Source: Pelagomonas calceolata
Lineage: Eukaryota; Sar; Pelagophyceae; Pelagomonadales; Pelagomonadaceae
Assembly (NCBI GenBank): GCA_918797485.1
Contig: CAKKNE010000004.1
Location: 2,480,001 to 2,544,000, forward strand
Length of the DNA stretch: 64,000 nt
Direction of reading: 5' to 3'
Shown here: in pieces, positions 1,688 through 63,794 of the stretch
Position numbering within the stretch: position 1 is the first letter of the stretch
Layout: each line of letters begins with the position of its first letter
Made by a program: the position numbers and the translations under genes
Notes under the pieces: model-generated
Told to the model about the DNA's origin: nothing
Seen by the model: the letters and a program-made list of their open reading frames with translations, nothing else
Database searches by the model: none

Positions 1688-1710
1688 GCTAGCGTCTGTA
1701 AGACACTAGC
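1688..1710 (-). promoter_or_regulatory. Palindromic upstream element, copy 1
   Basis: Read on the minus strand it has arms GCTAGTGTCTTACAG and ACGCTAGC. It sits 217 bp upstream of the kelch-BTB start, in the same orientation. It is the only structured sequence in the 313-bp spacer 1471-1783. Confidence 0.55.
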
Positions 1711-1783
1711 GCAAAGTGCGACGTAACTAGCCTCAGCCTCAAAAGCCTCCGCGACGCTTCAAGGAAACACAAAAACGAGCACA

Positions 1784-2704
1784 TTAGGTCATCACAACTC
1801 GCACGCTATCTCCAAATACGGGCGCGAACGACAGGCACGGCACGCCGCCGCCGAAAACCACGACGCCGTCGCCGGAAAACGCCGCGGCCGCGTGGACGGG
1901 GTAGGCCCGCATCACGTCGAGCGGCGCCTCGGCGACGCACTTTACGTCCTCTCCGATGCGGAGCACCGCGACGCCGCCGACCTCGCCCTCGTCCGCCGGG
2001 ACGCCGCCCGCGACGACCAGCTCGCCCGGCCGCGCCGTCGCGCACACGCAGGCCGCGAGGCGCCGCGACGCCGCCGCGGTCGCGTCGTCGAGCGCGAGCT
2101 CGCTCCACGCCGCGTCGGCGAAGCGCGCCGCGCGGCCGCCGCCGAAAGCGATTGTCTGCCCATCGGACGTCGAGCACGCGAACGCCACGGGAAACGCGGG
2201 CGCCGCGACGCGGCTCCACGTTTGCGTGGCCGGGTCGAGCACGTAGGCGTCATCATCGAGGTCGCCCGCGTCGCCCCGGCCGCCGCACACGAGGCATGCA
2301 TCGCCTGGGAGCGCGACGAACGCGTGCGACCACCGCGGCGCCGGCGGCGACCCCTCGCAGCGCAGCTCCCTCCAGACGTCGTCGTGCCAGCGCCAGGCGT
2401 CGCCGAACGCGCCGCCGGCGCGGCCGCCGTGGATGACGAAGCCGCCCTCGACGGCTGCGGCGCCGTGGCGCTCGCGCGCCTTCGGTCGCGGCGTCGACGA
2501 TACGGTGGGCGCGACGGTGCCATCGCTGCTCACGATGACCACGTCGTCGAGGCGGCGCAGCTTCTTGCCATCCCTGCCGTAGCCGCCATGAATAGCTACG
2601 CGAGTGCTGCTCAGTGGCACAGCAATGTGGCCCCAGCGCTGCAGTCTAGCTTCGGCCCAGTAGTTGAGCTGCAGCTGTCCGGCAGCAGCGTGCTGAGCAG
2701 TCAT
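1784..2704 (-). CDS. Kelch beta-propeller protein (wybutosine-enzyme-type propeller)
   Basis: 306 residues from the ATG at 2704; a GTG 12 nt upstream is not needed. At least five kelch-like repeats are visible (IHGGYGRDG, IHGGRAGGAFGD, VCGGRGDAGD, AFGGGRAAR, VAGGVPADEG). The C-terminal 'VVFGGGVPCLSF' resembles the last blade of the propeller in TYW4/LCMT2-type tRNA wybutosine proteins, but no methyltransferase domain is attached. It is therefore either a free propeller or a generic kelch adaptor. No signal peptide or membrane segment is seen. The promoter motif is 78 bp upstream, co-oriented. The opposite strand is also open over most of this gene, which is expected from GC-biased third positions. 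Confidence 0.75.
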   Translation of the reverse strand: MTAQHAAAGQLQLNYWAEARLQRWGHIAVPLSSTRVAIHGGYGRDGKKLRRLDDVVIVSSDGTVAPTVSSTPRPKARERHGAAAVEGGFVIHGGRAGGAFGDAWRWHDDVWRELRCEGSPPAPRWSHAFVALPGDACLVCGGRGDAGDLDDDAYVLDPATQTWSRVAAPAFPVAFACSTSDGQTIAFGGGRAARFADAAWSELALDDATAAASRRLAACVCATARPGELVVAGGVPADEGEVGGVAVLRIGEDVKCVAEAPLDVMRAYPVHAAAAFSGDGVVVFGGGVPCLSFAPVFGDSVRVVMT

Positions 2705-2782
2705 GCGATCGCTCACACACTATCAAGTCAAAATTCCATCACTGCGCACCGATTTTTTATCGGGGAGCTGAACCTCGCGTGG

Positions 2783-2806
2783 GCTAGCGGCCGGTAAGAC
2801 ACTAGC
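2783..2806 (-). promoter_or_regulatory. Palindromic upstream element, copy 2
   Basis: On the minus strand the arms are GCTAGTGTCTTACCG and GCCGCTAGC. It lies 78 bp upstream of the kelch-propeller start codon and is co-oriented. Confidence 0.55.
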
Positions 2807-2893
2807 AAGCTGCTGTGGAAGGATCATGGACAGCCTTGAGTGGAGAGAAATTACGCGACGTCTAGTTCGAGCCGTCCGCGTCCGACGGCGACC

Positions 2894-4012: not shown

Positions 4013-4096
4013 GCCCTGAGTCGCGCGCGGCGGTCGATACTCGTCTACTTGCAGTGAGTGTACTTGGCCTTGTACTCTCAAGTCTCACTGTCCAGT

Positions 4097-4127
4097 TGCT
4101 CTCAAGTGAAGAGAGAGCACTTTTTTT
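4097..4127. other. Hairpin followed by a seven-T run
   Basis: Arms TGCTCTC (4097-4103) and GAGAGCA (4113-4119) with a 9-nt loop are followed on the plus strand by a run of seven T. It lies 85 bp upstream of the RING-AP2 gene and reads away from it. It could be a chance structure, or the end of a small plus-strand transcript; no Pol III A or B box was recognised. The rest of spacer 4013-4326 shows nothing. Confidence 0.25.
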
Positions 4128-6083: not shown

Positions 6084-6094
6084 GGTGCATCTGA

Positions 6095-6215: not shown

Positions 6216-6229
6216 CAGAAACGAAGAAT

Positions 6230-6249
6230 GCTAGTGTGTCGCTACGCTA
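6230..6249 (+). promoter_or_regulatory. Palindromic upstream element, copy 3
   Basis: GCTAGTGTGTCGCTACGCTA, 47 bp upstream of the M50 protease start used here. It overlaps an upstream in-frame ATG (6228), which argues that translation starts downstream at 6297. Confidence 0.5.
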
Positions 6250-6296
6250 CCTCACATCTCAAGCCCCTCACAGCTTTTGTGACTAGCCTGTGCAAA

Positions 6297-7502: not shown

Positions 7503-7508
7503 GTGTTT

Positions 7509-7532
7509 CTAGTGTCTCTGTGTACGCTAGCT
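7509..7532 (+). promoter_or_regulatory. Palindromic upstream element, copy 4
   Basis: CTAGTGTCTCTGTGT then ACGCTAGCT. It begins 7 bp after the protease stop and lies 103 bp upstream of the ferredoxin-like start, co-oriented with both genes. Confidence 0.5.
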
Positions 7533-8169: not shown

Positions 8170-11100
8170 TCACACAAGCAGGGGCGCCGACGCGTCCGCG
8201 TCCGCGTTCGGCGCCGCGTCGAGGGAGACGGCCTCCGCGGGCAGCCCCGCGTAGGTCGACCCCGGGGGCGCCGCCTCGCCCTTGAGCACCAGCGAGTGCG
8301 GTAATAAGGAAGCGCCGTCGCCCAATGAGGCGCCCGGCATGACCACCGACCGCGCGCCGACGTCCGCGGCGCGGCCGATGGCCACGTCGGCGAGCTTGAT
8401 CACCATGTTCTCCACCGTATGGCACGTCGTATCACACAAGCGTCCGATCGACGCGCCGTCGGCCACTTGCAACAGATCAAACTCCAACGCTTTCCCGTGG
8501 ACGCACGCTCTATGACCAATTGAAGCCCCCATGGCGCGATAGAACCACACCGCCAATACAGTACCGTGCATGGCCTCGATGAGCGGATAGACGGGCGCTA
8601 AGAGCGTCATCATCAAGGCCCAGCAGAAGTGGTAGCGCGAGTAGAAGCCGTGGTCGCCCTTTGTGAACTTTCCCACTATGAGCTTTTTTAGTAGTACTAC
8701 GAGGACACAATGTAACAGCGCCGTCACCGCACTTAACAAAGGTAAGCAGCCTAAATAAGCGTAGTACCCGTCCCACGACAGGTAGAAGTAGAGCATGTAT
8801 CCACAGCTTATGATGCACACTTCGAAGACGTCCCGTAAAGGATATAAAATAGCAGCTACGAGTATGTTGACCGTATTCCACAGTAAAGTCCACCTTATGC
8901 TCTTATGACGCCTTCTCGCTTCCGCTTCGAGCAGCGCTAACGGTGTAGTTCCCGAGGGAAGCTCGGGCCGCTTTCGCAAGACGACGGCCTGCCCCTTTTT
9001 ATTTCCCGTGGCTACACTTCCAGGCTGAAATACCTGGCGCGCCGCTCCCAGCGAGAACGTTCCTAATACTGCTCTTTCCCCCACAACACAACCAGGAAGC
9101 ACTAACGCGTGGTCCAACACATTCGCCTCTCGCCTCACAACGATCCTCTCAGCTTTACCATGCAAGTGGGCGTCCGCTCTAGGAGCTAATCTAACCAGGC
9201 TTCCGAAGACGACGTCGTCCTCGACAGTTACTAAGTCAAATTCCACACATCGGAAGAAGTCGGCGTGCACCCGTCTCCCGATCTTACAACCAAGGAACCG
9301 GTAGCGCCAGCACAACAATTCGGTCGAGACCCAGGGCTTCAAACAATGCTCGAAGGCCTCCGCTTCGACCAACCGTTCGAGCAGCCATCGCCTCAGAGGT
9401 TTCTCATCACGTTTCTCCGAAAATCTACCAATAAACACCCACTTGTAAATGACAACAGTCCAAAAGTAGAACTCGTGGAAACCGATCCGCCAGACCCAAG
9501 GATAAGCGAACCAGAACAGCCACGACGCCTTCGGCCACGTCAGGTGGCCCCTTCGTTCTTGTAACAAAAAGTAAAACCACCACTCCAGAAAGTAAACAAA
9601 AGGTATGTAAGGTAGGGCTTGTAACATGTAGGCGATGGGCACACCGAGATATGTCCTTCTATTTAGCAATCGTTTCCTTTCCATAGCGTCGAAGGGGTCC
9701 CGGGGTCTGTTTAATGTAGTAACCCTCGAGCCGACTTTGTCCGTCGTCGAGAGGGCGCCTACTTCAGCATTAGCTGGTACGCTCGTCCCGGGCGCGACGT
9801 AGGCGTGGAGGTCCACATATGAATCTTCTCCTATTTTTGTAGAACGCCTCACTAATCTACCTTTGCACATGGCGTGGCCGTCGATCTCGGCCCCCGCTCT
9901 TATGGTACATCGATCACCGATCGTTGCGAGGGGCGGGTCCGCCAACCTGCCTTCCAAGACGACGTCCTTTCCTATGGACGCGCCGAGCGCGCTATAGTAG
10001 ACGTTCATTAATCTTGTACCGTGCAGGACCCTCTCCAATCTCTGCGTGACGATGCTTTGGATCTGAGCGACGAGCCACCACTTGAGGTGCTGCAGGGACC
10101 ACAATGGGGCTTGCTTTTTACATTGCTCTCGATACTTGGTTGTAGTACCGAGCAGGACCCTCTGCACCACCCAAGCAAAGATAAAAGCCCCGAAATCCGT
10201 CAATGCGAGAAAGAGCGGAACACAAGCGAACACATAAACCTTGGGCAGCCACAGGTACAGGTACCACAAGACGTACCACGCCGGCCAGTCCATGTATCTC
10301 ATACCGAGGACCGTGATGACTCCCAGAATTTGAATCAATAGTGATACGCAACGCGTCGGGTCTCGAGCATGATACGTCGTATCTGGGACTAATGGCACGG
10401 GCACGTCATGGACGTGGCGCGACCGTTCTTCAGTGATGACGCGCGCGAGGCTTTTAACAGTGGGATGTTTGTAGAGAGTCGTCCCCGGTATTGATGATGC
10501 ACCCTCCACACGCCTCCGTATCAGGTTCGTGGCCCGGCCCGCGAGTAACGAATTTCCTCCTAATGTTTCAAAATCGTCATCAACACCTACACTATCTATA
10601 CCGAGGACCTCCGCGAAGATCGTGGCGAGGGACGCCTCCAATTCTGATGAAGGCTTCTCTGATGCATGACGCTTTACAGAAGGCAGTTTCTTCAGGTCAA
10701 GTTTGCCTCTATCGGTGCGCGGGAATTCGGAGACGCAGATGATTTGTGAAGGCACCATGTACTTCGGTAATGATGAAGCGAGTTGCTCGCGTAGAATATC
10801 GCTATCCAAAGTAGTTCTAGCGTAGGCTACTAGCGCCATCGCCGCGCCTTCACCGGTCGTCGTACAAACCGATTCCTTCACACCTTGTATCTGATTAAGT
10901 TTGCTTTCGATCTCGCCTAACTCGATCCTTAAACCTCTCAACTTGATCTGGCGGTCCTGTCGCCCCAGAAACCGCAACTCGTTACCACAGTATCGGACGA
11001 CGTCGCCGGTTCGATACATGCGATCCGATTCGTTTCGAGCTAGCTTCGGCGGGGCCTTGCTGAAGGCCTTGTTTGTGGCTTCAGTATTATTCAAATAGCC

Positions 11101-13131
11101 GAACGCGACGTCTCCAATAAATGCTAACTCACCGGGCACGCCGAGCGCCGCGACGTCGTCTTTACTACTATTCAACACGACGACGCGCACGTGGTCCACG
11201 GCGCGGCCGATGGGCACTTGTTGAATAGGAGGAGGCACGCAGCCGACGCCGCGCGGCGCCGGCGCCTCCCAGTACGTGATGTCCGCTTCCGTAGGGCCAT
11301 AAACATTCGCCAATAACGCGCGCGGCGCTTCTGTCGAACACTGGGTTACCACTGAGGGTGGTAAAGCCTCGCCACAGCACACGACCAAGCGCAACGACTG
11401 CAACGAAGCGCTCTCGTTGACTTCTAGAATGGCACCCAATTGCGAGGGCGCGAAAAACGCCACCGTGACGTTTTGTAACGCGTGCAATAAGGCTGACGGG
11501 TCGCGCTCGATGCCATGAGGAGGCACGGCGAGGCACGAACCGACGGTCAGGGGCCAGAAGAGCTCCCACTCGCTCACGCCAAAGACGAAGGGCGTCTTTT
11601 GCAGTACCACACCTCGGTCGCAGCCGAGCTTCCTTCTACTCTCATGAAAGCTCGCGTCTTCATATGAACCGTCCCGCGGTGTGCTACGACCGGTCAGCTG
11701 CGCCCCGTAGCGCCGCTGGAACCAGGCCACGCGCCGCGCCAACGTCAGGTGCGGCACGGCCACGCCCTTCGGTCGTCCCGTCGTGCCGCTCGTGAAGAGC
11801 ACGTAGACGCAGTCTTGGGGTGTTGGTGGTGTTTGTATTACTGGTGTGACGGCGGCGTCGTAGATAGAATCGTCGACGACAATTGTCGGTAGTTGCAAGG
11901 GCACCTTGTCCTCCAGTCCTGCAGTAAGCACGACGGCGACCGGTTCACTATCTTCGAAGATGGCCCTTCTCCTCTCGTGAGGATAGTCGGGGTCGACGGG
12001 CACATAAGCGCCGCCCGCGCCCAGAACACCGTAGACGGCTGCCGGTAGGGCGAGACATCGTCGCATCACAATGGCTATTCTATCTCCCGGTTGACAATCT
12101 ATCGAGTTCGCAATGAATCGTGAAGCTCTGTGAAATTGATCATATGTAATTTGCGTCGAGGTATTGACGTCCAACAACGCCGTGCCGTCGCCACACGCGA
12201 GCATGCGGTCCCACACTGTTGTATGAGAATCCCAGGGCGGACTCGGGCCGTCGCCCAGCGCCAGGATCTTTCTTCTAGTAACGTCGTCGACGAGCGATAC
12301 TTCTGACGCGACGTCGTCGCCAGACGCTCTAAGATACGTCTCGAGCTGGTCCGCGAGGCGCTTCGTCGTTCTGAAGCCGGACTTGGTCTTGACGACCAGG
12401 ACGTCCAGAGCATTTGGAGGCGGCTTCGCGAGCGCGACGCCCGCCTGGAAAGGTTCATGTCCAAGAGCCGTCGCAATCTTGTTTGGTGAAGGCGCTCTTC
12501 CAAAATCCGCCGTCATTGTACGAGCCGCTCTCACGTTCTCGACGAGCGTCCTGACCGATTGATTGCGGTCGCACGCTATCCGTAAAGGCGTCCAGCGCCC
12601 GTCGTCGAAGACGCCGACCACAACTTCGTCCTGGCGCGCGTGGTGCGCTATTACTCGGACGAAGGCCGCTATCAGAGAGTCGTCATCGATCTGAGTCTCG
12701 AGCGATGCGAGCTCCTCCGTTTGCCGTGGGCAGTCGAGGACCGGCGGCGCGCCGCGGAGGTATTCTGCCCACGGCGCGACGTCGATCGCTTCCTCTGGTT
12801 TCGGTCGTCGTCGCGTCAGCACTCCTATTTCTATGATGGCACCAACCAAAGCCCACGCGTCGATGACGTAGAACTTGCGCAGCGACGCCGCGGCGACGCC
12901 GGCGGTCGCGGAGGCGACGGCGACGACGATGGCGGCCGGGTGCAGCTGTTCGACGTGGGCGGTTACTGAGGCCAGCACCGCGCGAATGAGCATCAATGCC
13001 AGCGTCGTCAGCGCGATTTTGCTCCGCAGCACTGCATGGAGGTCAAAGCCTGCTGCTGTCACAGTGATCACGGCGTCGGCTAGGGCCACCGCCAGCAGGC
13101 CGTACGTCTCGAGAGGCATTCTGAGCTTCAT
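8170..13131 (-). CDS. NRPS-like A-T protein with tandem membrane/hexapeptide domains (epsilon-poly-lysine-synthase architecture)
   Basis: 1,653 residues in one exon, ATG at 13131. Residues 8-105 hold membrane helices. About 110-180 resembles the end of a condensation N-lobe (WAEYLRGAPPVLDCP, VIAHHARQDEVVVG) but HHxxxDG is absent. The adenylation domain has A3 (YVLFTSGTTGRPKG, about 443), A5 (NVYGPTEAD, about 609), A7 (MYRTGD), A8 (RQDRQIKLRGLRIELGEIE) and the A10 lysine region (RTDRGKLDL). The carrier site is LGGNSL (Ser about 861). The last 720 residues alternate membrane segments with three left-handed beta-helix hexapeptide domains, starting near 1040, 1300 and 1540. This is the order of Streptomyces Pls and of the NRPS terminal domain TIGR02353. 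The usual FDVSVWE is FGVSEWE: the Asp that normally binds the alpha-amino group is Gly, so the substrate may not be an ordinary alpha-amino acid. No thioesterase is seen. Confidence 0.85.
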   Translation of the reverse strand: MKLRMPLETYGLLAVALADAVITVTAAGFDLHAVLRSKIALTTLALMLIRAVLASVTAHVEQLHPAAIVVAVASATAGVAAASLRKFYVIDAWALVGAIIEIGVLTRRRPKPEEAIDVAPWAEYLRGAPPVLDCPRQTEELASLETQIDDDSLIAAFVRVIAHHARQDEVVVGVFDDGRWTPLRIACDRNQSVRTLVENVRAARTMTADFGRAPSPNKIATALGHEPFQAGVALAKPPPNALDVLVVKTKSGFRTTKRLADQLETYLRASGDDVASEVSLVDDVTRRKILALGDGPSPPWDSHTTVWDRMLACGDGTALLDVNTSTQITYDQFHRASRFIANSIDCQPGDRIAIVMRRCLALPAAVYGVLGAGGAYVPVDPDYPHERRRAIFEDSEPVAVVLTAGLEDKVPLQLPTIVVDDSIYDAAVTPVIQTPPTPQDCVYVLFTSGTTGRPKGVAVPHLTLARRVAWFQRRYGAQLTGRSTPRDGSYEDASFHESRRKLGCDRGVVLQKTPFVFGVSEWELFWPLTVGSCLAVPPHGIERDPSALLHALQNVTVAFFAPSQLGAILEVNESASLQSLRLVVCCGEALPPSVVTQCSTEAPRALLANVYGPTEADITYWEAPAPRGVGCVPPPIQQVPIGRAVDHVRVVVLNSSKDDVAALGVPGELAFIGDVAFGYLNNTEATNKAFSKAPPKLARNESDRMYRTGDVVRYCGNELRFLGRQDRQIKLRGLRIELGEIESKLNQIQGVKESVCTTTGEGAAMALVAYARTTLDSDILREQLASSLPKYMVPSQIICVSEFPRTDRGKLDLKKLPSVKRHASEKPSSELEASLATIFAEVLGIDSVGVDDDFETLGGNSLLAGRATNLIRRRVEGASSIPGTTLYKHPTVKSLARVITEERSRHVHDVPVPLVPDTTYHARDPTRCVSLLIQILGVITVLGMRYMDWPAWYVLWYLYLWLPKVYVFACVPLFLALTDFGAFIFAWVVQRVLLGTTTKYREQCKKQAPLWSLQHLKWWLVAQIQSIVTQRLERVLHGTRLMNVYYSALGASIGKDVVLEGRLADPPLATIGDRCTIRAGAEIDGHAMCKGRLVRRSTKIGEDSYVDLHAYVAPGTSVPANAEVGALSTTDKVGSRVTTLNRPRDPFDAMERKRLLNRRTYLGVPIAYMLQALPYIPFVYFLEWWFYFLLQERRGHLTWPKASWLFWFAYPWVWRIGFHEFYFWTVVIYKWVFIGRFSEKRDEKPLRRWLLERLVEAEAFEHCLKPWVSTELLCWRYRFLGCKIGRRVHADFFRCVEFDLVTVEDDVVFGSLVRLAPRADAHLHGKAERIVVRREANVLDHALVLPGCVVGERAVLGTFSLGAARQVFQPGSVATGNKKGQAVVLRKRPELPSGTTPLALLEAEARRRHKSIRWTLLWNTVNILVAAILYPLRDVFEVCIISCGYMLYFYLSWDGYYAYLGCLPLLSAVTALLHCVLVVLLKKLIVGKFTKGDHGFYSRYHFCWALMMTLLAPVYPLIEAMHGTVLAVWFYRAMGASIGHRACVHGKALEFDLLQVADGASIGRLCDTTCHTVENMVIKLADVAIGRAADVGARSVVMPGASLGDGASLLPHSLVLKGEAAPPGSTYAGLPAEAVSLDAAPNADADASAPLLV

Positions 13132-14425: not shown

Positions 14426-14983
14426 GCGCGCGCCGCCGACGACGCGCGCCCCGCGGGGACCAAGTCGCCCGCGTCGCGGCGCGCGTCGGATTCCTCCCTC
14501 CACCTTTCTCCCGCCTACCCCGACGAAACTTGAAGGAACTCGGTCTAGCGGTTCTTCGACACACTAGGACCAAGGCTAGTGCTCGCCGTCCTCTACGACG
14601 CGGAGCGGCTGGTCCTCCCTGTTCATAGCTTGAATGCACCATTCAGCGTCCGCAATCCTTTATACGACTCCCCAGGAAGCTGCTCGTTGCAGCGCGGCTG
14701 CCGCCGCACTGTCGCCGGAAAGTTATAGCCTAAACAAGGGAGAGCTGGATATTGGCACGTGTTCCGCTTCGCGGGGCGCGCGGCCGCAGCATACCGCGGC
14801 GATGGGCGGCGGCAGTCATCAGGACGCTGCCGCGGGACCCGCTTCGACCACGGCTGCCTGCGCCGGCCGCACCGGGCGAAACCGCTCCGTCCCGCCCCAG
14901 CCCACACACCACACACACGCCGCCCCGCCCCACGCCACGCCACACACACACAGCACTCACTCCGACCCACGCAGAACACAAAG
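14426..14983. other. Spacer with CA-rich 5' leader
   Basis: This 558-bp spacer precedes the RRM gene. A palindromic element copy sits at 14545-14567. A CA-rich stretch (about 14899-14958, repeated CACACA) forms the probable 5' UTR. No coding sequence is supported. Confidence 0.5.
14545..14567 (-). promoter_or_regulatory. Palindromic upstream element, copy 5 (orientation against neighbours)
   Basis: On the minus strand CTAGTGTGTCGAAG then ACCGCTAG. Both neighbouring genes are on the plus strand, so this is one of the few copies not co-oriented with a downstream gene. Confidence 0.45.
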
Positions 14984-15738: not shown

Positions 15739-15762
15739 GCTAGTGTCTTACAGGACGCTAGC
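15739..15762 (+). promoter_or_regulatory. Palindromic upstream element, copy 6
   Basis: Arms GCTAGTGTCTTACAG and ACGCTAGC, 196 bp upstream of the Nudix gene, co-oriented. Nothing else is seen in spacer 15599-15958. Confidence 0.6.
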
Positions 15763-16863: not shown

Positions 16864-16883
16864 CTAGTGTTTCGACACACTAG
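16864..16883. promoter_or_regulatory. Palindromic upstream element, copy 7 (near-perfect palindrome)
   Basis: CTAGTGTTTCGACACACTAG reads almost the same on both strands. It lies 119 bp upstream of the RCC1-repeat gene. It is the most symmetric copy, with CTAGTGT on both arms. Confidence 0.5.
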
Positions 16884-21584: not shown

Positions 21585-21607
21585 AGCTAACGTAGTAACA
21601 TACTAAG
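21585..21607 (-). promoter_or_regulatory. Palindromic upstream element, copy 8 (degenerate)
   Basis: On the minus strand CTTAGTATGTTAC then TACGTTAGCT; both arms carry substitutions. 55 bp upstream of the START-like gene, co-oriented. It is the only signal seen in the 305-bp divergent spacer 21530-21834. Confidence 0.35.
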
Positions 21608-24808: not shown

Positions 24809-24830
24809 CTAGTGTGTCCATACGCTAGCT
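24809..24830 (+). promoter_or_regulatory. Palindromic upstream element, copy 9
   Basis: CTAGTGTGTCCA then TACGCTAGCT. No confirmed gene follows, but the short coding-like modules beginning at 25126 are on the same strand. Confidence 0.45.
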
Positions 24831-28222: not shown

Positions 28223-28246
28223 GCTAGTGTCTTACAGGCCGCTAGC
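28223..28246 (+). promoter_or_regulatory. Palindromic upstream element, copy 10
   Basis: GCTAGTGTCTTACAG and GCCGCTAGC arms, identical to the copies at 61869 and 63591. It points toward BET1, whose start is 246 bp away. Confidence 0.6.
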
Positions 28247-28256
28247 CCGCCGCGTT

Positions 28257-28280
28257 AGCTAGCGTCATCGACACACTAGG
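28257..28280 (-). promoter_or_regulatory. Palindromic upstream element, copy 11
   Basis: On the minus strand CTAGTGTGTCGATG then ACGCTAGC. It points toward the DEAD-box gene, 144 bp away. With copy 10 it makes a back-to-back pair in the divergent promoter, one for each gene. Confidence 0.6.
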
Positions 28281-28958: not shown

Positions 28959-28981
28959 GCTAGTGTCTCTATGCTACGCTA
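28959..28981 (+). promoter_or_regulatory. Palindromic upstream element, copy 12
   Basis: GCTAGTGTCTCTATG then CTACGCTA, 186 bp upstream of the SLC35B-like gene, co-oriented. The final G of the right arm is lost. Nothing else is seen in spacer 28862-29167. Confidence 0.5.
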
Positions 28982-29167
28982 AGGGCCTAATTTTTCGATT
29001 TTTGACATTTGACAACTAGTGCAAACTGCTGGGTAGCCTGTGGGTGCACAAGACGCGCCATCAATACGGCAACTGGTGCAGCGTGCTGCGTTTTGCATCT
29101 TTGCGGCAGTAAAGAGCAGCTATCTCCACAGCTTTGGCTGCCTCAAAACGCCGACGCAGCGCAACCT

Positions 29168-30311: not shown

Positions 30312-30335
30312 GCTAGTATGTCTATACGACGCTAG
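30312..30335 (+). promoter_or_regulatory. Palindromic upstream element, copy 13
   Basis: GCTAGTATGTCTATACGA then CGCTAG, 178 bp upstream of the carrier-like gene and co-oriented. Confidence 0.5.
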
Positions 30336-32928: not shown

Positions 32929-32952
32929 GCTAGTGTCTTACGGTGCGCTAGC
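32929..32952 (+). promoter_or_regulatory. Palindromic upstream element, copy 14
   Basis: GCTAGTGTCTTACGG then GCGCTAGC, 139 bp upstream of the Cys-rich gene, co-oriented. Only signal seen in the 322-bp divergent spacer 32770-33091. Confidence 0.55.
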
Positions 32953-35706: not shown

Positions 35707-35730
35707 CTAGAGTGTCTTACAGCCGCTAGC
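35707..35730 (+). promoter_or_regulatory. Palindromic upstream element, copy 15 (opposed orientation)
   Basis: CTAGAGTGTCTTACAG then CCGCTAGC, 186 bp upstream of the minus-strand membrane-protein start but pointing the other way. Confidence 0.45.
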
Positions 35731-36593: not shown

Positions 36594-36616
36594 CTAGTGT
36601 CTTACACACCGCTAGC
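36594..36616 (+). promoter_or_regulatory. Palindromic upstream element, copy 16
   Basis: CTAGTGTCTTACACAC then CGCTAGC, 140 bp upstream of the NSE1-like gene, co-oriented, in a 305-bp divergent spacer with no other signal. Confidence 0.55.
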
Positions 36617-38866: not shown

Positions 38867-38888
38867 CTAGTGTCTTACAGACGCTAGC
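38867..38888 (+). promoter_or_regulatory. Palindromic upstream element, copy 17
   Basis: CTAGTGTCTTACAG then ACGCTAGC, 61 bp upstream of the DUF4336 start, co-oriented. One of the shortest motif-to-ATG distances. Confidence 0.6.
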
Positions 38889-41362: not shown

Positions 41363-41384
41363 CTAGTGGTCGACTACGCTAGCT
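41363..41384 (+). promoter_or_regulatory. Palindromic upstream element, copy 18
   Basis: CTAGTGGTCGAC then TACGCTAGCT, 170 bp upstream of the plastid-type hypothetical gene, co-oriented. Only signal seen in the 308-bp divergent spacer 41247-41554. Confidence 0.45.
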
Positions 41385-43736: not shown

Positions 43737-44139
43737 GGTTGAGTGTCAGTGCTTCAATTTGCACAGCGGCGATTGCGGCTTTGTTGCCGTGCGCGTGGAC
43801 GTGTAACTTGCACAGCTACGCTGCCAGAGCGTTAGCACGCTATCAATTTTGTTATGAAACGATGCGTCGCCCTCTAATAGCCGCAAAAGCGTAGCGACGA
43901 GCAGCAAGAGTCCTAGAGCCCGAGCTACGCTAGCTCGTATGGGCAAGCAAAAAGCGCGTCAGCTGAGAGCTTACCCGCGCGCGAGAGGTTGCAGAGTACC
44001 GCTGTCTTGCACCGCATCTACGCTCCACCGCTCCATCGAACTGCTGCGACGCCTGCGCTCAACAGCCAGCCGAGGCGACTACACAGCGTCGACGAGCAAA
44101 GGCACGCGTCGGAAATATCTCGCAGCAACCAGCTACTGC
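43737..44139. other. Divergent spacer and probable 5' UTR
   Basis: 403 bp with a palindromic element at 43913-43935. The frame upstream of 44140 is open back to an ATG at 43939, only 4 bp after the palindrome; its translation is low in complexity and is treated as untranslated. Confidence 0.45.
43913..43935 (+). promoter_or_regulatory. Palindromic upstream element, copy 19 (left arm diverged)
   Basis: CTAGAGCCCGAGC then TACGCTAGCT, 204 bp upstream of the ATG at 44140, co-oriented. Confidence 0.4.
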
Positions 44140-45527: not shown

Positions 45528-45549
45528 CTAGCGTATCGACACACTAGCT
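45528..45549 (-). promoter_or_regulatory. Palindromic upstream element, copy 20 (opposed orientation)
   Basis: On the minus strand AGCTAGTGTGTCGAT then ACGCTAG; 189 bp upstream of the plus-strand deubiquitinase start but pointing away from it. Confidence 0.45.
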
Positions 45550-52703: not shown

Positions 52704-54476
52704 TTAGTACACTCGTAGATACAGCTCAACATCGTTACGACATCGGGGGAGGGGGCAGGGCGGCGGCGGCGGCGGCGGCGGGGGGGGGGGGGGGGGATAC
52801 AGACGCCACCCTTTGTTGGGAGCCGCCCGCTGGACGCAGACGACGTCCACGGCTTTCCACTGGCGGCCCGCCCAGTGGGATGGAGCCATACTGTTCTTTT
52901 TTTGTTCTCTGTCTTCCACGATGCGAAAAGAGCATCTATCCCCGTCCGACACATAACCGTCTGGCGCGTCCTTCGGGCTCACAAACACTAGGTTCTGCGT
53001 GTGATCGAGCCGAATAAACCCGTAGCGGCGCTTGGCCGTAGCCTCACCCTTGGTCCCGAGATCAATGACGGTGCCCTGGAAGATGATGTCCGGCGGCGGC
53101 GGCTCCGCGTAGGCTAACGGCGGCGGTTGGGCCCAGGACCACGGGTGCGTCCCTGGCGCGACGGGCCCCAGGACCACGGGGGGCGACACCCCCGGCACGT
53201 AGGCTAACGGCATGGGGAAGGGCTCGTACGGTATATCATGGTCGGGGTCCGGGAGATCCTCCCCACTCGACAGGACGCTCAAAATCGTGCCCTGGTGCGC
53301 TTTCAGCTGGCTCTCGAGGCTCTCCCGTAAGGTCTCAGTCTCGGCCGCGCGCGCGGTAGCAGCGGCCGCGGCCGCCTCAGAAGCGTCAAGCTTCGCCAAG
53401 AGCCCGGAAGTCGCTGCTTGGAGCTCGGTTGCCGTGACATACGCCCGCATCCGATCTTCCTGGGCCGCCGCCGCTCGCGCTTCGGCCGCACGCGCTCGCG
53501 TGAGGGCCGTCACCGCTCGCGCCTCGGCCGCACGCGCTCGCGTCTCGGTCAACGCCACTCGCGCCTCTGCCGCCACCGCTCGCGCCTCCGCGGCCTCATA
53601 ACACAAAAGGGCTTCGCTCGCCACGTCCAGGTCGGTGCGCTCGACCGAGGCGGCACGCACTCGCGTCCCGGCCACCACCGCTCGCGTCTCCGGGCCCGCA
53701 CCCGCGCCCGGCCGCGGCCGCGCCCGCTCCACTATCATCTTAGACCACCTCGGGTGTCTCTTCTGGGACCAAATTTCTATGGCTCGAGCTGCGGCCTCCG
53801 GTTCCGAGAACTCCACCATGCCGCAGCCTTTGCTTCGTCCGGCCGAGTCCAGCATGATGTAAGCGTCGACGACGCGGCCGAATTCCTTGTAGAGTTCTAT
53901 CAACTGCGGCGTCGACATGTCGTACGCCCTCCCAACGAAGATCCGCGTCGTGGGCTCGACGGCCGACTGGACGATCGGTACAGGCGAGGGTCGCGTCGTC
54001 GCGGGCTCGAGGGCCGGCGGGACCAGCGGCTCAAAATCCGTGCACGGGCCGCGGCAGGTAGGACACTCCGTCACGTGGCCCGCGGGCGTCCGTGCGAACC
54101 ACCCGGCGGCGCAGGACGAACACATCGTATGCCCGCAGCCCACGACCCGCACCTCGACGCTAACGTCCATGCAGATACTACACTCCGCGTCCACCGCCTC
54201 CACGGGGCGCGGAGGCGACCGCGGCGGCGTCACGACCGACGGCGCCCACTGACGCTCCCTATCCTTGATCGTTTGTATCGCGGCGAGGATCTTCCGGCGG
54301 GGTACCCTGGCAATGGAGATTTCGCGAAGGTCGGCGTCGTTCAGTTGGAGGAACGCCGCGTCGTCGACCTCGTGCTCGGCAAAAATTCCGATCAAGTGTG
54401 ACAGACCCAGCTCCGTCAGCAGCGTCCGGACGGCCGCGTCCGGCGGCAGCGACGTTGCTATCGTCGGCGACGCCAT
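52704..54476 (-). CDS. SAM - RING - RRM - coiled coil - cold-shock-like protein
   Basis: 590 residues from the ATG at 54476 (MASPTIATSL); the frame is open for another 112 codons upstream, including MSSTTSRLLASC, so a longer form is possible. A SAM domain (about 12-75) is followed by a RING (about 95-145, CSICMDV...CGHTMCSSC...CPTC). An RRM comes next (about 178-255, RIFVGRAYDMS...SKGCGMVEFSE), then an Ala/Arg/Glu coiled coil made of short repeats (about 285-390). A cold-shock/OB-like domain (about 470-550, GTVIDLGTKGEATAKRRYGFIRLDHTQNLVFV) comes before a poly-Pro tail encoded by a CGG/G tract. It probably couples RNA binding to ubiquitin ligation. The domain order is unfamiliar to me. Confidence 0.8.
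   Translation of the reverse strand: MASPTIATSLPPDAAVRTLLTELGLSHLIGIFAEHEVDDAAFLQLNDADLREISIARVPRRKILAAIQTIKDRERQWAPSVVTPPRSPPRPVEAVDAECSICMDVSVEVRVVGCGHTMCSSCAAGWFARTPAGHVTECPTCRGPCTDFEPLVPPALEPATTRPSPVPIVQSAVEPTTRIFVGRAYDMSTPQLIELYKEFGRVVDAYIMLDSAGRSKGCGMVEFSEPEAAARAIEIWSQKRHPRWSKMIVERARPRPGAGAGPETRAVVAGTRVRAASVERTDLDVASEALLCYEAAEARAVAAEARVALTETRARAAEARAVTALTRARAAEARAAAAQEDRMRAYVTATELQAATSGLLAKLDASEAAAAAATARAAETETLRESLESQLKAHQGTILSVLSSGEDLPDPDHDIPYEPFPMPLAYVPGVSPPVVLGPVAPGTHPWSWAQPPPLAYAEPPPPDIIFQGTVIDLGTKGEATAKRRYGFIRLDHTQNLVFVSPKDAPDGYVSDGDRCSFRIVEDREQKKNSMAPSHWAGRQWKAVDVVCVQRAAPNKGWRLYPPPPPPPPPPPPPCPLPRCRNDVELYLRVY
52761..52796 (-). repeat. (CGG)n followed by a 17-G run, coding for poly-Pro
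   Basis: About seven CGG units run into an uninterrupted run of 17 G on the plus strand, within the 3' coding end of the minus-strand SAM-RING gene. It is slippage-prone: length changes not divisible by 3 would alter the last 20 residues. Confidence 0.8.
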
Positions 54477-54816
54477 ATAAAACAATTCTCCAGTTCGGCT
54501 GTAGATGGGGTGTTGCCGGATGGCCTGCCGACGCGAACGGGCCACGGCAGAGCTAGCCTGGGGCTCAGATGAGGCACAGTAGAGTGTGTTCAGCGCGTTT
54601 GTGCGATGGGCTGCGTTTCCGCCGCAGGCACAAGACGTGCGGAGGAGGCGCCTCGAAGCCGCGGCCCCGCACGAGGCGAGGAGGCGAGACGTTGTAGAAG
54701 ACATATGGCATGAAGGCTGATGAAGCACAAGACTACAGCGAGTCACTATCGCACCGCTATTGAGGAAGCTCTGGACTCGGATTCTTATTCCGGGGGAGGG
54801 GATGGGGGTCATGGGA
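54477..54816. other. Spacer, no gene seen
   Basis: 340 bp between two minus-strand genes. The minus frame is open upstream of the SAM-RING gene but shows no domain. No promoter palindrome is present. Confidence 0.4.
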
Positions 54817-57800
54817 TCAGAGCTCTTCGTCGGCCAAGTGGATTTCTACGCGCCGGTTCGACGCGTTCGCCGAGCCCTCGGTGTCGTCGGCAACTCTCCT
54901 CGAGCCGGCCAGACCGACGCAGTTGAGGCGCGAGCGGTCGATGCCGCGCGCCACGAGCGCGTCAGCAACGGCCTGGGCCCGGCCCAGCGAGAATGCGACG
55001 GCACCACCCTTTTCGCCGCCGAAGTGTTTTTGACAAACTCCGTTCGAACACTTGTGGTCGCCGCCGACGCAGTCGAGACCGCACTTCGAATTCGTGTGCC
55101 CTTCTAACCGCACACTGTCGACGTTCGGATGCGTGCGGAGCATCAAAGCTAACTGATCGATGAGCTCTGAGGAGTCCTCATGGATCGTCGTAGCGTTGCC
55201 GTGGAATCGCACGTGCTCGGAGAGCCACAGCCGTTTCGCGCCGACGTCGAGGACGACGGAGCTCCGGCGTCCGGCGCGGGGCCTCACGGCCGAAGCCGTG
55301 GCGTCGTCCTTCAATGGCGGCGCGAGCGATTCCAGCGTAGCGGTCGGCTCATTCAACTCGAAGACAGCAGTGCGCGCCTCGCAAAGGACCGTGCCCGTCG
55401 CCACATTCACTCCGCGCGCCGCGAAGACGTAGGCGCCAGGGGCGTCGATCGTTACCTCAATACGATTGTCGTCGGCGCGAATCCAGGCCGGTTCGGAATC
55501 GTCATCAAGAGAACGGTGGACGTGCTCGAGCACGAGGCCAGCCGGCGCCTCCACGGCCACAATCAGGACAGCGGGTGACTGCGAGACATTGGTAAAGGTG
55601 CAGCGCATGCCACCGCCGACGATCGACGATCGCCGCCGCGCCTTCGCCGCGGCCGAGAGATCAGACACCGTCGACAGTCGTCGCGCCTTATCGCGCTTAT
55701 GCTTCTCGACGGCGCCCTCGAACAGTCCGACGAGACCTCCAACGTCGGCGGCCGCTTCAGCCGATCGCGCCTTCGCGGCTTCCCGCTGACGGTGCCGTTC
55801 CGCATCTTCGGCAACGTTCGCGAGGTGTCGTTTCCGCAGCTCGGCGACGTGGCCGCTACCCAGAGCCTCCAACGACTTGCGCTTCTTCGACGGCGCCGCG
55901 GCGGGTGCCACGGCGGGCGGCGCCGCGGGCCGCGGCACCGGCGCGGGCGGCGGCATGGCCGACGGCTCGGCCGGCGGTGCCGCGGCGGCCTCCGGCGCGG
56001 TCGTGGGCTCGGCTTCCATCGGCGCGGGCTCGGGCGGCGGCGGCGGCGGGGCGGCTACCTTCTTCCGCGACGAAGGTACTGGTGGCGACTGAAACAGCCC
56101 CCGCTGCTCCTTCTTTTTCTTCTTCGACGGTGGCGCGGCCGGCGGCGCGGCCGGCGGCGCCTCGTCCACCGCAGCGAGCATCGAACCGAGGTCTGCCTCC
56201 AATTGCACGGTCTCTCGGCGCGAGGAGGCGACTTCGGACGGTCGTGCCGGCGGCGCCTCGTCGACCGCGGCCAGCATGGATCCAAGGTCATCTTCTAACT
56301 GCACGGTCTCCCGTCGAGAAGCGTCGATCTCGGACGGCCGCGGGGCCGGCGGGGGCATCGGCGCCTCCTCCCCGACCGCCGCCAACATAGAACCAAGATC
56401 ATCTTCCAGCTGGACCGTTTCCCGCCTCGACGCGTCGACGACGCTCGGCCGCGCCGGCGGCAAAGCCAGCAGGTCGCTCAAGTGATCTTCGAGCGGCTCC
56501 TCCTCCGTGGGAGCCGGCGACGGCGCGGCGACTGGAGGTGGCGCCATCGACGGCTCCGCGGCGGCGGCCGGTGGCTCCGGGGCGGCCGGCGATGGCGCAG
56601 CAGCGGCCGGCGGTGACGGCGCCGGCGGCGCTGCCGGGCTCGACACCGTGAAGAAGGGCGACGGCAGCGGCGGCGTCGGCTTGCACACCGGCGGCGGCGT
56701 CGGCGCCTTCGGGGTCGGCTGAGGCGCGGGTGACGCCACGCGCGGCGACCGCGCCGCGACGATGCCCGTTCCGCGCAGCATCTCGACCGAGCCGCGCCGG
56801 CGGCGCGAGGGCGGCGGCTGCGTCGGCGCGTCCTCGTCGGCCTCGTTCACAAACTCCTCGTGGGCCTTCTGCGCGGCGGCTCGGCGGTCGGCCGATCTTC
56901 TTCTAGCTTCAGCGCGCGCCTTCTCCGCCGCGGCTCGTTGCTCCTCGGTCGGCTCCGCAGGTACGGGCCGCGGCGAGGCCGGCCGCGGCGACTGCGTCAC
57001 CGCGGGCTGCGGCGACGCCGCCCGCGGTGATCGCGCGGCGACGATGCCGGTTCCGCGCAATGCCGCGACACTACCGCGTCGCCGCCGAGGCTTCGGCGCT
57101 TCGTCGAGGTCCTCATTGGCGAATTCTTCAGCAGCCTTCCGTGCCGCGATACGCCGTTCGGTTGACTTCCGGCGCGCCTCGGCAACTTGCTCTTCGGTGG
57201 TCTCCACGGGCGGCGGCCGCGGCGAAGACGTAGGTCGGGGCGACGCCGGCCGCGGCGACGTCATCCGCGGCGGCGACGCCGTAGCCAGGCGCGGCGAGAG
57301 GGCGGCCACTTTCCCGGCACCTCGTAGAGCTTCCACGCTGCCGCGGCGTGAGGGCTTCTTCGGCGCGTCGTCGTCGAGGTCCTCGTTGGCGAACTCTTCG
57401 GCCGCCTTCCGTGCGGCGGCCCGGCGTTCGGCCGATTTGCGGCGGGCCTCGGCCCGTTGTTCCTCGGTGGTCTCCACGGGCGGCGGGCGCGGAGAAGACG
57501 CAGGCCGCGGCGACGCGGGGCGCGGCGACAGCCGCGGCGGCGACGCCGTCGCGAGGCGTGGGGATAGAGCAGCTACCTTTCCCGTCGACCTTAGGGCTTC
57601 GACGGAGCCGCGGCGCGTCCGCGTCGGTTGCGTCGGCGCTTCGTCTAGGTCTTCCTGCGCAAAGTCCTCCGCGGCCTTGCGCGCGGCGGCTCTGCGGTCG
57701 GCCGAGGCGCGGCGGGCGGCGCGCTCGGCCGCGGCCGCCTCTTCCGCGGTCGGCGCGCGGCGCGGCGACCGCAGCGGAGACCTGGCCGGGGAGGCCGCCG

Positions 57801-57903
57801 CGCGCGCCGGCGACGCGGCCTTTTTTAGCGCTGAGGCTGTGGCGCCGGTGTCCGTGCCTATACTGTCGCGTCGGCGCCGGTTCTCACTCAGAGGCGGGTC
57901 CAT
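54817..57903 (-). CDS. Repeat-rich protein with C-terminal OmpA-like domain
   Basis: 1,028 residues, ATG at 57903. Residues about 52-400 hold four copies of a 75-90-residue unit (A(D/E)RRAAARKAAEEFANEDLDEAP...RRRGSVEALRGTGKVAA.SPR.A.ASP). Residues about 490-580 hold three copies of a 35-residue unit (ASRRETVQLEDDLGSMLAAV) in a Pro/Ala-rich background. A helical part (about 690-760) and a beta-rich part follow. From about 892 to the end is an OmpA/MotB-type domain (VRLEGHTNSKC..., LGRAQAVADALVARGIDRSRLNCVGLAGSRRV, NRRVEIHL) with an inserted Cys cluster. OmpA domains bind peptidoglycan in bacteria; the eukaryotic role is unknown. Divergent from MPS1. Confidence 0.75.
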   Translation of the reverse strand: MDPPLSENRRRRDSIGTDTGATASALKKAASPARAAASPARSPLRSPRRAPTAEEAAAAERAARRASADRRAAARKAAEDFAQEDLDEAPTQPTRTRRGSVEALRSTGKVAALSPRLATASPPRLSPRPASPRPASSPRPPPVETTEEQRAEARRKSAERRAAARKAAEEFANEDLDDDAPKKPSRRGSVEALRGAGKVAALSPRLATASPPRMTSPRPASPRPTSSPRPPPVETTEEQVAEARRKSTERRIAARKAAEEFANEDLDEAPKPRRRRGSVAALRGTGIVAARSPRAASPQPAVTQSPRPASPRPVPAEPTEEQRAAAEKARAEARRRSADRRAAAQKAHEEFVNEADEDAPTQPPPSRRRRGSVEMLRGTGIVAARSPRVASPAPQPTPKAPTPPPVCKPTPPLPSPFFTVSSPAAPPAPSPPAAAAPSPAAPEPPAAAAEPSMAPPPVAAPSPAPTEEEPLEDHLSDLLALPPARPSVVDASRRETVQLEDDLGSMLAAVGEEAPMPPPAPRPSEIDASRRETVQLEDDLGSMLAAVDEAPPARPSEVASSRRETVQLEADLGSMLAAVDEAPPAAPPAAPPSKKKKKEQRGLFQSPPVPSSRKKVAAPPPPPPEPAPMEAEPTTAPEAAAAPPAEPSAMPPPAPVPRPAAPPAVAPAAAPSKKRKSLEALGSGHVAELRKRHLANVAEDAERHRQREAAKARSAEAAADVGGLVGLFEGAVEKHKRDKARRLSTVSDLSAAAKARRRSSIVGGGMRCTFTNVSQSPAVLIVAVEAPAGLVLEHVHRSLDDDSEPAWIRADDNRIEVTIDAPGAYVFAARGVNVATGTVLCEARTAVFELNEPTATLESLAPPLKDDATASAVRPRAGRRSSVVLDVGAKRLWLSEHVRFHGNATTIHEDSSELIDQLALMLRTHPNVDSVRLEGHTNSKCGLDCVGGDHKCSNGVCQKHFGGEKGGAVAFSLGRAQAVADALVARGIDRSRLNCVGLAGSRRVADDTEGSANASNRRVEIHLADEEL

Positions 57904-60675: not shown

Positions 60676-60713
60676 TCCGTCCCCTATCTCTACTAAGCTA
60701 TACGTATATCATC

Positions 60714-61637: not shown

Positions 61638-62190
61638 GCGCTGCGCGCAGGCAGGGAATCCGACTGGCTACGGAGAATTCCTGTGGCTCTCGCGCTGCGC
61701 GTATGAGCTAGAGCAAGATTCTTGGGCAGGGCTCCGGAGGTCGGTGTGGGCTTAGCGCTCCCACAAACAGCCTGTGCTCGTGAAGGCAGCTACAAAAGGT
61801 GCTCTCGTGTGTTGTAGCTACAGGCACGAAGCTTGTTTGGCTCGTTTTTTTGGCCGCGCGCACCTGGGGCTAGCGGCCTGTAAGACACTAGCAAGCCTAC
61901 GCTAAGGGCCACAGCCGTCCAGCTCCTTCTCCAAACAGGTCTCCTAGCCACGTCTGTAGGGCCGTGGGGATCCTAAGGTGCGGGGCCGCCTCTGTACCTT
62001 GTAGCCCCATAAAACGCACGCAAGGGCTGCCATACGGCTGCCCCCGACGCGCGCCGCGCGGCGAAAAGGAGCGCTCCACACCGGCTCTCGTCGCGAGCGG
62101 GCGAGGCAGCCGCGCGCGCGCCTCCGAGGCACAACACTCACCACAAAAGGCATCGTCGACGGCGTCTAGCCCACCGGCGCGCAGCGAAAA
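61638..62190. other. Divergent spacer
   Basis: 553 bp between the membrane-protein gene and the G-gamma gene. A palindromic element lies at 61869-61892; nothing else is recognised. Confidence 0.45.
61869..61892 (-). promoter_or_regulatory. Palindromic upstream element, copy 21
   Basis: On the minus strand GCTAGTGTCTTACAG and GCCGCTAGC, identical to copies 10 and 22; 231 bp upstream of the membrane-protein gene, co-oriented. Confidence 0.6.
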
Positions 62191-62442
62191 ATGGCGGACG
62201 CCGCGAGCCAGAAGCTCGCGAGCGACCTGGCGAGAGCCGAGGCGCGCAAGACATTGTGGGAGTCTGAGTTGGCGGGCCTCGCGGCGCGGCGCGAGGACGA
62301 CGCCGCGGCGGCGGCGGCGGCCGTCAAGGAAAGCGTCCTCGCGCGCGAGGCCGCGGACCCGCTCATGACCGTCCACGGCGACGCCGACGGCAACCCCTAC
62401 GCGCGGCCCGCGCGCGGCGGCGGCGGCTGCGCCGTCATGTGA
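62191..62442 (+). CDS. Heterotrimeric G-protein gamma subunit-like protein with CaaX box
   Basis: 83 residues, ATG at 62191. Residues about 5-50 form an amphipathic helix (QKLASDLARAEARKTLWESELAGLAARRED), as in GGL domains. The end 'DPLMTVHGDADGNPYARPARGGGGCAVM' parallels the G-gamma 'DPLLTPVPxSENPFxxxxxCxxL' tail. CAVM is a CaaX box in which Met favours farnesylation, so membrane anchoring is expected. It would pair with a G-beta propeller. The short length fits the family (about 70-80 residues). The call is by pattern only. Confidence 0.72.
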   Translation: MADAASQKLASDLARAEARKTLWESELAGLAARREDDAAAAAAAVKESVLAREAADPLMTVHGDADGNPYARPARGGGGCAVM

Positions 62443-62565
62443 CGCTGTTCCTACCCTCCTCCCCGTCTGTGGTGTAAGGCACTGTTCTAGGTCGCGGCGC
62501 GTCGGCGGCGTCGAGGCAAGTAGTAGTACGAACGCCTCCTTATGAAGCGGGGGGGGGGACAGAGC

Positions 62566-63318
62566 CTAGAGGCCGCGCCGCGCGTCGGCCGCCGCGCCGC
62601 GCGACGCCTTCGACGCCGCGACCGCCAGGTCGCGGCGGAACTCGCGCGCGGCCTCGGGTCGCTTGGCTGCCGATTTAGGCGGCAATCGCCACGGCTCGGC
62701 GTTCGCGGGGCTGAGCGGCGGCGGCGGCGAGCGCACCGGCGAGGCCGTGGACAGGAAGGCCCGCGGCGGAGGGGATAGCACGTGGGCCTTCTTCTCGCCG
62801 TGGGGCCGGAGCTGCTTCGTCGGGCGCGGCACGTTCTGCGCGCCGACGCGGTGCGCTTGCGGCACGGGCGGCCGCATGTCCCGCATCGCGCCGACCGTCC
62901 GCGCGCGGTTGTGGTCTTCGGCCTTCTTCGCCGACTTGGCGCCGCGGTCCGCTTTGATCTGCTGAGCCCGGTTCACCTCCTGCACGGCCGCGTCGATCTT
63001 GCCGAGCGTCGCCGCGACGGCCGCGGCCGGGAGCGAGGGCTGGCGCGGCGGCGGCGCGACCGCGGCCGAGGCCACGGGCGGCGGCAGCGGCGGCAGCGAG
63101 GCGACGGGCGGCGCCGCGATGGAGCGCCGCGGGAGCGCCGGGGCCGGCGGCGGCGGCGCTGCGGCCACGAGCTTCTCGAGCTCCTCGAGGATCACCGTGC
63201 TCTTCTGGTTGGCCTTGATGCCGCACAGCTTCGCGAGGCGCTGGAGTTCCTTGCGCGCCGGCTTCGCGGCGGCGGCGACCGCGCGTATCGCATCGATGGT
63301 GGCGTCGTCGAGCGTCAT
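62566..63318 (-). CDS. SAP-like-domain basic protein (NuSAP-like N-terminus)
   Basis: 250 residues from the ATG at 63318 (MTLDDATIDAIRAV). Residues about 24-52 (ARKELQRLAKLCGIKANQKSTVILEELEKLV) fit a SAP-like helix pair and resemble the N-terminal 'LKxLAKxxGLKANxK' region of NuSAP-type proteins. The rest is Pro-, Ala- and Arg-rich, disordered, with basic clusters (KADRGAKSAKKAEDHNRARTVGAMR; KQLRPHGEKKAHVL) and Ser-Pro sites (LSPPPRAF, VRSPPPPLSP). A nuclear role with DNA or microtubule binding is plausible but not established. Confidence 0.6.
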   Translation of the reverse strand: MTLDDATIDAIRAVAAAAKPARKELQRLAKLCGIKANQKSTVILEELEKLVAAAPPPPAPALPRRSIAAPPVASLPPLPPPVASAAVAPPPRQPSLPAAAVAATLGKIDAAVQEVNRAQQIKADRGAKSAKKAEDHNRARTVGAMRDMRPPVPQAHRVGAQNVPRPTKQLRPHGEKKAHVLSPPPRAFLSTASPVRSPPPPLSPANAEPWRLPPKSAAKRPEAAREFRRDLAVAASKASRGAAADARRGL

Positions 63319-63794
63319 CTTCGTGTCACAGCTGTTTCGTCGCACACAGGCGGTTTTGCGCGTCGCACACCGCTGAGAGTTGGTATACGCGGCGGGGGCC
63401 CAGCCGTTACTTCGGCGCAGCGTTGCGCGGGCGCGGCGTTGTCTCTCCGCGAAGCGCGGCGCGAAAAACGAGGGCCAAAAAGCAACAATCGAGGCGAATC
63501 GTGCGGCAGCGAACTGATCTAATCAGCGCACCGAGGTGTAGATGATGAATAATAGACGGGTCAAAGACGTGTCCTTTGAGGTAAATGCTTGCTAGTGTCT
63601 TACAGGCCGCTAGCTTGGCCCGCGTTTTGACTTTAAGAGCAGCTAGTGGTGGCTGTGATCGACCATCTGCGTCATACGCGACAGCACTGGCTCTCCATCG
63701 CTGCGACGCAGCGCCGTGACGCGAAAACGCTGCTCAAAAGCATCTCTATTGCTCAGTACAGCTGCCTGCCTTGTTGAGTGCTTAAATTTGAAAG
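63319..63794. other. Divergent spacer
   Basis: 476 bp between the SAP-like gene and the PIP-box gene, with a palindromic element at 63591-63614 and nothing else recognised. Confidence 0.45.
63591..63614 (+). promoter_or_regulatory. Palindromic upstream element, copy 22
   Basis: GCTAGTGTCTTACAG and GCCGCTAGC, 180 bp upstream of the PIP-box gene, co-oriented. Confidence 0.6.

Follow-up and report, generated by a model that had tools for sequence, protein, structure and literature searches.

Animal NRF-1 and RFX (X-box) sites are imperfect or perfect inverted sites found near many promoters, and the X-box tolerates variable spacing. In yeast, the sites of Rap1, Reb1 and Abf1 are located upstream of transcription starts in promoter regions, and repression of divergent transcription by Rap1 is independent of motif orientation, according to the portion of PMC6602560 used here. 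Oomycetes carry a composite core motif of 16-19 nt, INR+FPR, located at the transcription start of about 13% of genes, as given in the excerpt of PMC3599244 considered here. Here, we describe a bipartite element, CTAGTG and CGCTAG arms separated by a variable spacer, from the stramenopile alga Pelagomonas calceolata, the assembly matching strain RCC100. It was noticed in a stretch of 64,000 nucleotides (C4:2480001-2544000), referred to as the window. We consider it probably a docking site for a promoter-organising protein of the general-regulatory-factor kind. Like the yeast sites, it is found in promoter regions, and like Rap1 in its repression of divergent transcription it is orientation-neutral, a likeness in apparent working only; unlike them, it consists of two halves with a variable spacer, and its factor is putative. 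It shares with INR+FPR the character of a composite promoter motif in a stramenopile, oomycetes being a lineage without detected TATA boxes, but differs from that motif in lying about 130-380 bp upstream of coding sequence, in either orientation.

The genome comprises 32,445,274 bp in 8 contigs, six of 3.9-6.3 Mb and two of 90,574 bp and 39,373 bp. For strain RCC100, the sections of the genome paper used here (PMC9481584) give 32.4 Mb of nuclear sequence in six contigs, a plastid genome of 90 kb, a mitochondrial genome of 39 kb, a guanine-cytosine (GC) content of 63.6%, 16,667 genes and 0.45 introns per gene. Placement was scored in a 304-kb sample consisting of the window and 24 ten-kb stretches, with all six nuclear contigs represented. 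Coding segments were called by a seven-state model trained on the same 304 kb that it scored, 76% of which was called coding; its gene starts are approximate and some tandem gaps may be introns. Wherever two coding segments were 40 bp or more apart, the interval was treated as a gap and classed as tandem, divergent or convergent, the first two together being termed promoter-bearing. The strict pattern was defined as CTAGTGTNT-N5..14-CGCTAG (regular expression CTAGTGTNTN{5,14}CGCTAG). Clear copies allow at most one mismatch over both arms, overlaps being removed, which gives 62 in the sample and 20 in the window; five of the 62, which are so close to the end of a stretch that only one neighbouring gene is seen, were excluded from gap counts. 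A degenerate profile with a variable gap was trained on the same copies that it was then used to find.

The strict pattern was found 14 times in the window and not once in 100 shuffles. Genome-wide, as the first-pass annotation of the window had proposed to search, it occurs 3344 times (1690 forward and 1654 reverse) compared with 1 match for a control read backwards, far above chance. Raw arm matches with 0, 1 and 2 mismatches on both strands of the sample numbered 40, 25 and 65 in the real sequence, compared with 0, 5 and 52 after reversal; because the two values for 2 mismatches are so close, 41 non-overlapping two-mismatch matches were left out of all counts. The roughly 22 window copies annotated before would be reached in number by adding two weaker candidates at 43913 and 21587 to the 20 clear copies (Table 1), and none of the 20 lies inside a coding-model segment, as had been stated. 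Recovered were the ten copies carrying TCTTAC (the CTTAC type in Table 1), the 24-mer that is identical at 28223, 63591 and, as its reverse complement, 61869, and the head-to-head pair between divergent genes at 28.2 kb.

The element is restricted to non-coding DNA and, there, concentrated in promoter-bearing gaps. None of the 62 copies overlaps coding sequence. This is partly due to the stop codon that CTAG carries on either strand, but of 147 occurrences of CGCTAG by itself 41 are coding. In the 232 kb called coding, the degenerate profile has 2 matches, including one at window position 10817. Copies are present in 32 of 76 tandem and 22 of 53 divergent gaps, thus in 54 of 129 promoter-bearing gaps compared with 2 of 48 convergent ones (Fisher p = 3e-7). 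Allowing for gap length, promoter-bearing gaps carry 1.0 and convergent gaps 0.21 copies per kb (p = 0.014). A profile score of at least 6 is reached in 63 of the 109 promoter-bearing gaps of at least 200 bp, compared with 1 of 109 when the same sequence is reversed, and words of the element are the most enriched words of promoter-bearing gaps. A second enriched word of these gaps, GATGGCGT / ACGCCATC, was seen 31 times versus 1.9 expected with element copies masked; it contains ATG and may represent start-codon context or a separate signal.

Measured over 83 gene-facing sides, the element edge lies 131, 209 and 379 bp (5th, 50th and 95th percentile) from the coding boundary, and not one of the 32 tandem copies lies within 100 bp of it, where 8.3 would be expected. 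Divergent copies are central in their gaps (Kolmogorov-Smirnov p = 6e-9), and tandem positions are non-uniform as well (p = 5e-5). Second copies are scarce. Just one of the 109 longer promoter-bearing gaps, the one at 28.2 kb in the window, holds two, compared with 9.9 expected under length-weighted placement of 53 copies (0 of 5000 simulations as low), and 21 of 22 occupied divergent gaps contain a single copy. Gaps of at least 200 bp hold 0.54 copies when tandem and 0.43 when divergent, so that two promoters do not bring two copies. No convincing second fixed element was found between motif and gene.

Orientation is neutral. Of the 32 copies in tandem gaps, 17 share the direction of their gene and 15 run opposite to it (p = 0.86), divided by subtype into 11 and 7 for the CTTA type and 6 and 8 for the others, and 43 of the 83 gene-facing sides are in agreement (p = 0.83). 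The strand bias reported in the first-pass annotation, with 17 concordant window copies, largely arose because any copy in a divergent gap points at a gene; the 20 clear window copies comprise 9 in divergent, 10 in tandem and 1 in convergent gaps. Once divergent gaps are separated and the remaining 240 kb added, the bias disappears, the tandem ratio being 7:3 in the window (with the copy at 16864 among the 7) and 10:12 outside it. The three copies described as contrary (14545, 35707 and 45528) do lie against their genes in tandem gaps, and the copy at 16864, described as symmetric, is near-symmetric. Three observations had been named beforehand as speaking against the proposed promoter role: lack of strand bias relative to genes is what we found, whereas frequent occurrence in coding sequence and target duplications in the aligned flanks of the 62 copies were not seen.

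A chromatin boundary, replication origin or other chromosome-structure element that is merely placed in promoter-bearing gaps could produce a similar picture, being orientation-neutral, rarely present more than once per gap and numbering thousands per genome. It is the rival that survives best, the other four discussed below each failing at least one test, but we consider it unlikely: the element is nearly absent from convergent gaps, where a boundary would also be wanted, and some 4000 copies or more would be a large number of origins for 32 Mb. A further point in its favour is a partly low-GC stretch of 378 kb (C1:2585303-2963179) in which no forward CTTAC-type copy is found among the matches listed; 12 would be expected, and the stretch was noticed post hoc. 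Inside it, the segment C1:2750001-2755000 has a GC content of 48% and one loose two-edit match, and may be part of the low-GC zone described as centromeric in the section of PMC9481584 used here. A separate exact 22-bp repeat with palindromic arms, CTAGTGAGTTTTGCGCCACTAG, was found at C1:1196660, 2231511, 2722326, 2884445, 2886250, 2905263, 2905618 and 3004753 and at C2:1724570, several of these copies lying in or near the same stretch.

The first-pass annotation had suggested a role in the core promoter or in initiation, as opposed to a passive repeat. Its second half stood, the element being conserved, non-coding and promoter-associated, with similarity essentially confined to the element itself in the two copies searched. 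The first half did not. A directional core promoter or initiator located where transcription begins would account for the restriction to promoters and for the enrichment of the element's words, and with TATAAA occurring once in the 16.9 kb that separate elements from genes, starts could be defined by another signal. Against this stand the 17:15 ratio and the 43 of 83 agreeing sides, where a fixed orientation would be required, the usual single copy for two divergent promoters and, with distances taken from the coding boundary, the absence of tandem copies from the last 100 bp and the spread over 131-379 bp. We regard a core role as improbable.

Alignment of the 62 copies yields the consensus TTG-CTAGTGTCTTAC-variable-(A/C)CGCTAG-CT, with no further flank column within 45 bp above the information cut-off used. 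Element length is 22 bp in 25 copies, 20 in 16, 21 in 11, 23 in 7, 18 in 2 and 24 in 1; of the 62, 40 belong to the CTTAC type, in which 22 bp predominates, and 14 to the GTC type, in which 20 bp is the most frequent length. The left and right halves depend on each other, CGCTAG being located 2-7 bp past CTAGTGTCTTAC in 2048 of 2364 genomic copies of the latter. The arms are nearly but not strictly complementary, with a conserved T facing G at position five, and the hyphenated palindrome of the earlier description is thus not a true one. Arm symmetry was counted over the whole genome with one spacer range (8-15 bp between six-base arms), single-strand counts being used for palindromic patterns, which match each site on both strands. 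The asymmetric form CTAGTG...CGCTAG occurs 3996 times (2017 forward and 1979 reverse, control 30), CTAGTG...CACTAG 122 times (control 9; at least 9 of these sites among the matches listed belong to one unrelated repeat) and CTAGCG...CGCTAG 41 times (control 58). The symmetric forms are therefore 33- and 97-fold rarer though one mutation away, and the corresponding counts in non-coding DNA of the sample are T/G 48, TG/TG 3 and CG/CG 1.

If pairing or a symmetric dimer were what mattered, the symmetric forms would be expected to be common. Their rarity indicates two unlike halves and speaks against a stem in RNA or cruciform DNA as well as against a simple palindromic homodimer site, whose halves would be interchangeable. 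It is very improbable that the arms form an RNA hairpin (or a DNA cruciform) with a role in the transcript; the arms can pair into a stem of 6-7 bp including a U-G pair, with a loop of varying length, but the better-pairing symmetric forms are the rare ones, Watson-Crick variants of the stem are not tolerated, and the element is placed in both orientations. Animal NRF-1 and RFX sites are not known to be related in sequence to the algal element, whose two halves are not interchangeable.

The element might also be a miniature mobile element or its remnant, since it is short, has inverted arms and is present in thousands of nearly identical copies. The gaps around the copies at 63592 and 15740 were compared with the whole genome, which gave, besides full-length matches to themselves, 37 and 33 further matches, all at or around the element (query positions 255-305 and 103-179, respectively) and mostly ending within about 30-50 bp; three longer or paired matches, reaching 57-73 bp, were found for the 15740 gap at C3:3798173-3798220 with 3798221-3798293 and at C6:2826209-2826265. 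There is thus no larger repeat around these two copies, and since similarity is essentially limited to the element, it is not a transposon on this evidence. No shared flank or target duplication was seen in the 62 aligned copies, in which conservation ends about 3 bp into the flank, and coding sequence is free of copies. We hold a mobile origin to be about as remote as the hairpin. Least probable of all is a splice-related signal, for example for spliced-leader addition, suggested by the CTTAC type, which reads CTTACAG/G (3' splice-like) and on the other strand GTAAG (5' splice-like), since the GTC type lacks both signals yet shares the arms and orientation is neutral.

We hypothesize instead that the element is a double-stranded DNA recognition site for an abundant sequence-specific factor that would mark and open promoter regions in the manner of Abf1, Reb1 and Rap1. 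The site is bipartite, with TTGCTAGTGTCTTAC on the left, a second, unlike half on the right (AGCTAGCGG on the other strand) and a flexible spacer between them, usually spanning 20-23 bp in total. Because the halves are not interchangeable, its readers would most likely be two non-identical DNA-binding surfaces, either a heterodimer or one two-domain protein. One bound factor per gap would exclude nucleosomes and, in any orientation, act on whatever promoters flank it, be it one or two, with transcription starting between the element and the start codons. Protein binding, nucleosome exclusion and an effect on transcription are what we infer; an asymmetric, bipartite, orientation-neutral, nearly always single and central or upstream site fits what a promoter-opening factor would use. 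Two features of general-regulatory-factor-type sites, restriction to promoters and either orientation, are found, the latter as regards placement only.

Several findings weigh against this proposal. Two of the 62 copies lie in convergent gaps, and 46 of the 109 longer promoter-bearing gaps have no element even by the degenerate profile. Tandem distances to the start are no tighter than under random placement (p = 0.89), their spread being dominated by a single outlier of 2107 bp. Lengths of 18-24 bp are a broad span for a single protein complex to accept while its two halves stay distinct; two domains joined by a flexible linker could account for it. No difference was found between genes with and without the element in Pfam matches (10 of 20 and 9 of 20), GC content at third codon positions (p = 0.78) and length (p = 0.67). 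The Pfam comparison used a shuffled draw from 68 genes with and 71 without the element that were usable among 143; the gene at window positions 8179-13113, without element and with a Pfam match, was skipped, and counting it gives 10 of 21. RPL19e, V-ATPase subunit E and a light-harvesting protein are among the genes without the element, too few to conclude from. Finally, a 339-bp match of C6:3207604-3207945 in contig CAJWOS010000634.1 (3551-3889, 89% identity) has the element identical at 22 of 22 positions while the alignment differs in 37 of 349 columns (p = 0.085), which is weak support for constraint.

That contig is one of two matches in bacterial and archaeal genomes, the other being a single copy on an 8-kb stretch. 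It is filed as a contig of a proteobacterial metagenome-assembled genome, and its open frame adjoining the algal end reads by eye like a bacterial AAA-type protein; it is probably chimeric or contaminated. In viral contigs, CTAGTGTCTTACNNNNCGCTAG gave no match, and a looser pattern gave three, each a single copy on its stretch and taken as chance. A literature search by titles and abstract openings brought up no description that we recognised as this element. The main text of the genome paper (PMC9481584) contains neither "motif" nor "promoter", and a 2026 P. calceolata paper has no occurrence of "promoter", "motif", "cis-regulatory", "transcription factor" or "palindrom".

Table 1. Clear copies and weaker candidates of the element in the window, with strand and gap context.
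Feature	Position	Strand	Context
CTTAC type	1689..1709	-	tandem gap, with gene
CTTAC type	2784..2805	-	tandem gap, with gene
GTC type, 1 mismatch	6231..6250	+	divergent gap
CTCT variant	7509..7530	+	tandem gap, with gene
GTC type	14545..14567	-	tandem gap, against gene
CTTAC type	15740..15761	+	tandem gap, with gene; whole-genome similarity centred on element
Near-symmetric copy (CTAGTG...CACTAG)	16864..16883	+	tandem gap, counted as with gene
Degenerate candidate	21587..21606	-	profile score 14.7
GTC type	24809..24828	+	convergent gap; next coding segment 1391 bp off
CTTAC type	28224..28245	+	divergent gap, member of head-to-head pair
GTC type	28259..28279	-	divergent gap, second of head-to-head pair
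CTCT variant, 1 mismatch	28960..28982	+	tandem gap, with gene
GTC type, 1 mismatch	30313..30335	+	tandem gap, with gene
CTTAC type	32930..32951	+	divergent gap
CTTAC type, left arm CTAGAGTGT	35707..35729	+	tandem gap, against gene
CTTAC type	36594..36615	+	divergent gap
CTTAC type	38867..38887	+	divergent gap
CTAGTGGTCGA variant, 1 mismatch	41363..41382	+	divergent gap; missing from profile matches
Weak candidate, 2 mismatches	43913..43933	+	divergent gap
GTC type	45528..45547	-	tandem gap, against gene
CTTAC type	61870..61891	-	divergent gap
CTTAC type	63592..63613	+	divergent gap; elsewhere in genome its gap matches at element only

Further observations concern genes. On the minus strand of the window, positions 52704-54812 hold a single open reading frame (ORF) with SAM, RING-finger and RRM domains, positions 54817-57903 a 1028-aa ORF with a C-terminal OmpA-family domain on this nuclear contig, and positions 8170-13131 a 1653-aa ORF matching AMP-binding, phosphopantetheine-attachment and hexapeptide-transferase domains. 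Two groups of light-harvesting-protein matches, at C2:5301845-5306341 and C4:4741259-4745507, have identical or nearly identical scores, which suggests recent duplication or gene conversion between two chromosomes.

Promoter grammar is poorly known beyond a few model lineages, and in P. calceolata, an abundant ocean alga, about half of the promoter-bearing gaps sampled share a single well-defined site, so that its putative factor can be fished for directly. Non-interchangeable halves, a flexible spacer and usually one copy per gap on either strand lead to sharp predictions, and the element may be of use for gene-start annotation, reporter design and the spotting of related algal DNA in metagenomes. 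A bolder proposal, possible but in our estimate rather doubtful, is that pelagophytes have a promoter system of their own, in which a heterodimeric or double-domain factor, without a comparable use in other eukaryotes, would occupy a single asymmetric bipartite site in the majority of promoter-bearing gaps, would be the main promoter-defining signal, would replace TATA and initiator grammar, would set up bidirectional promoters and might also take part in replication or domain structure.

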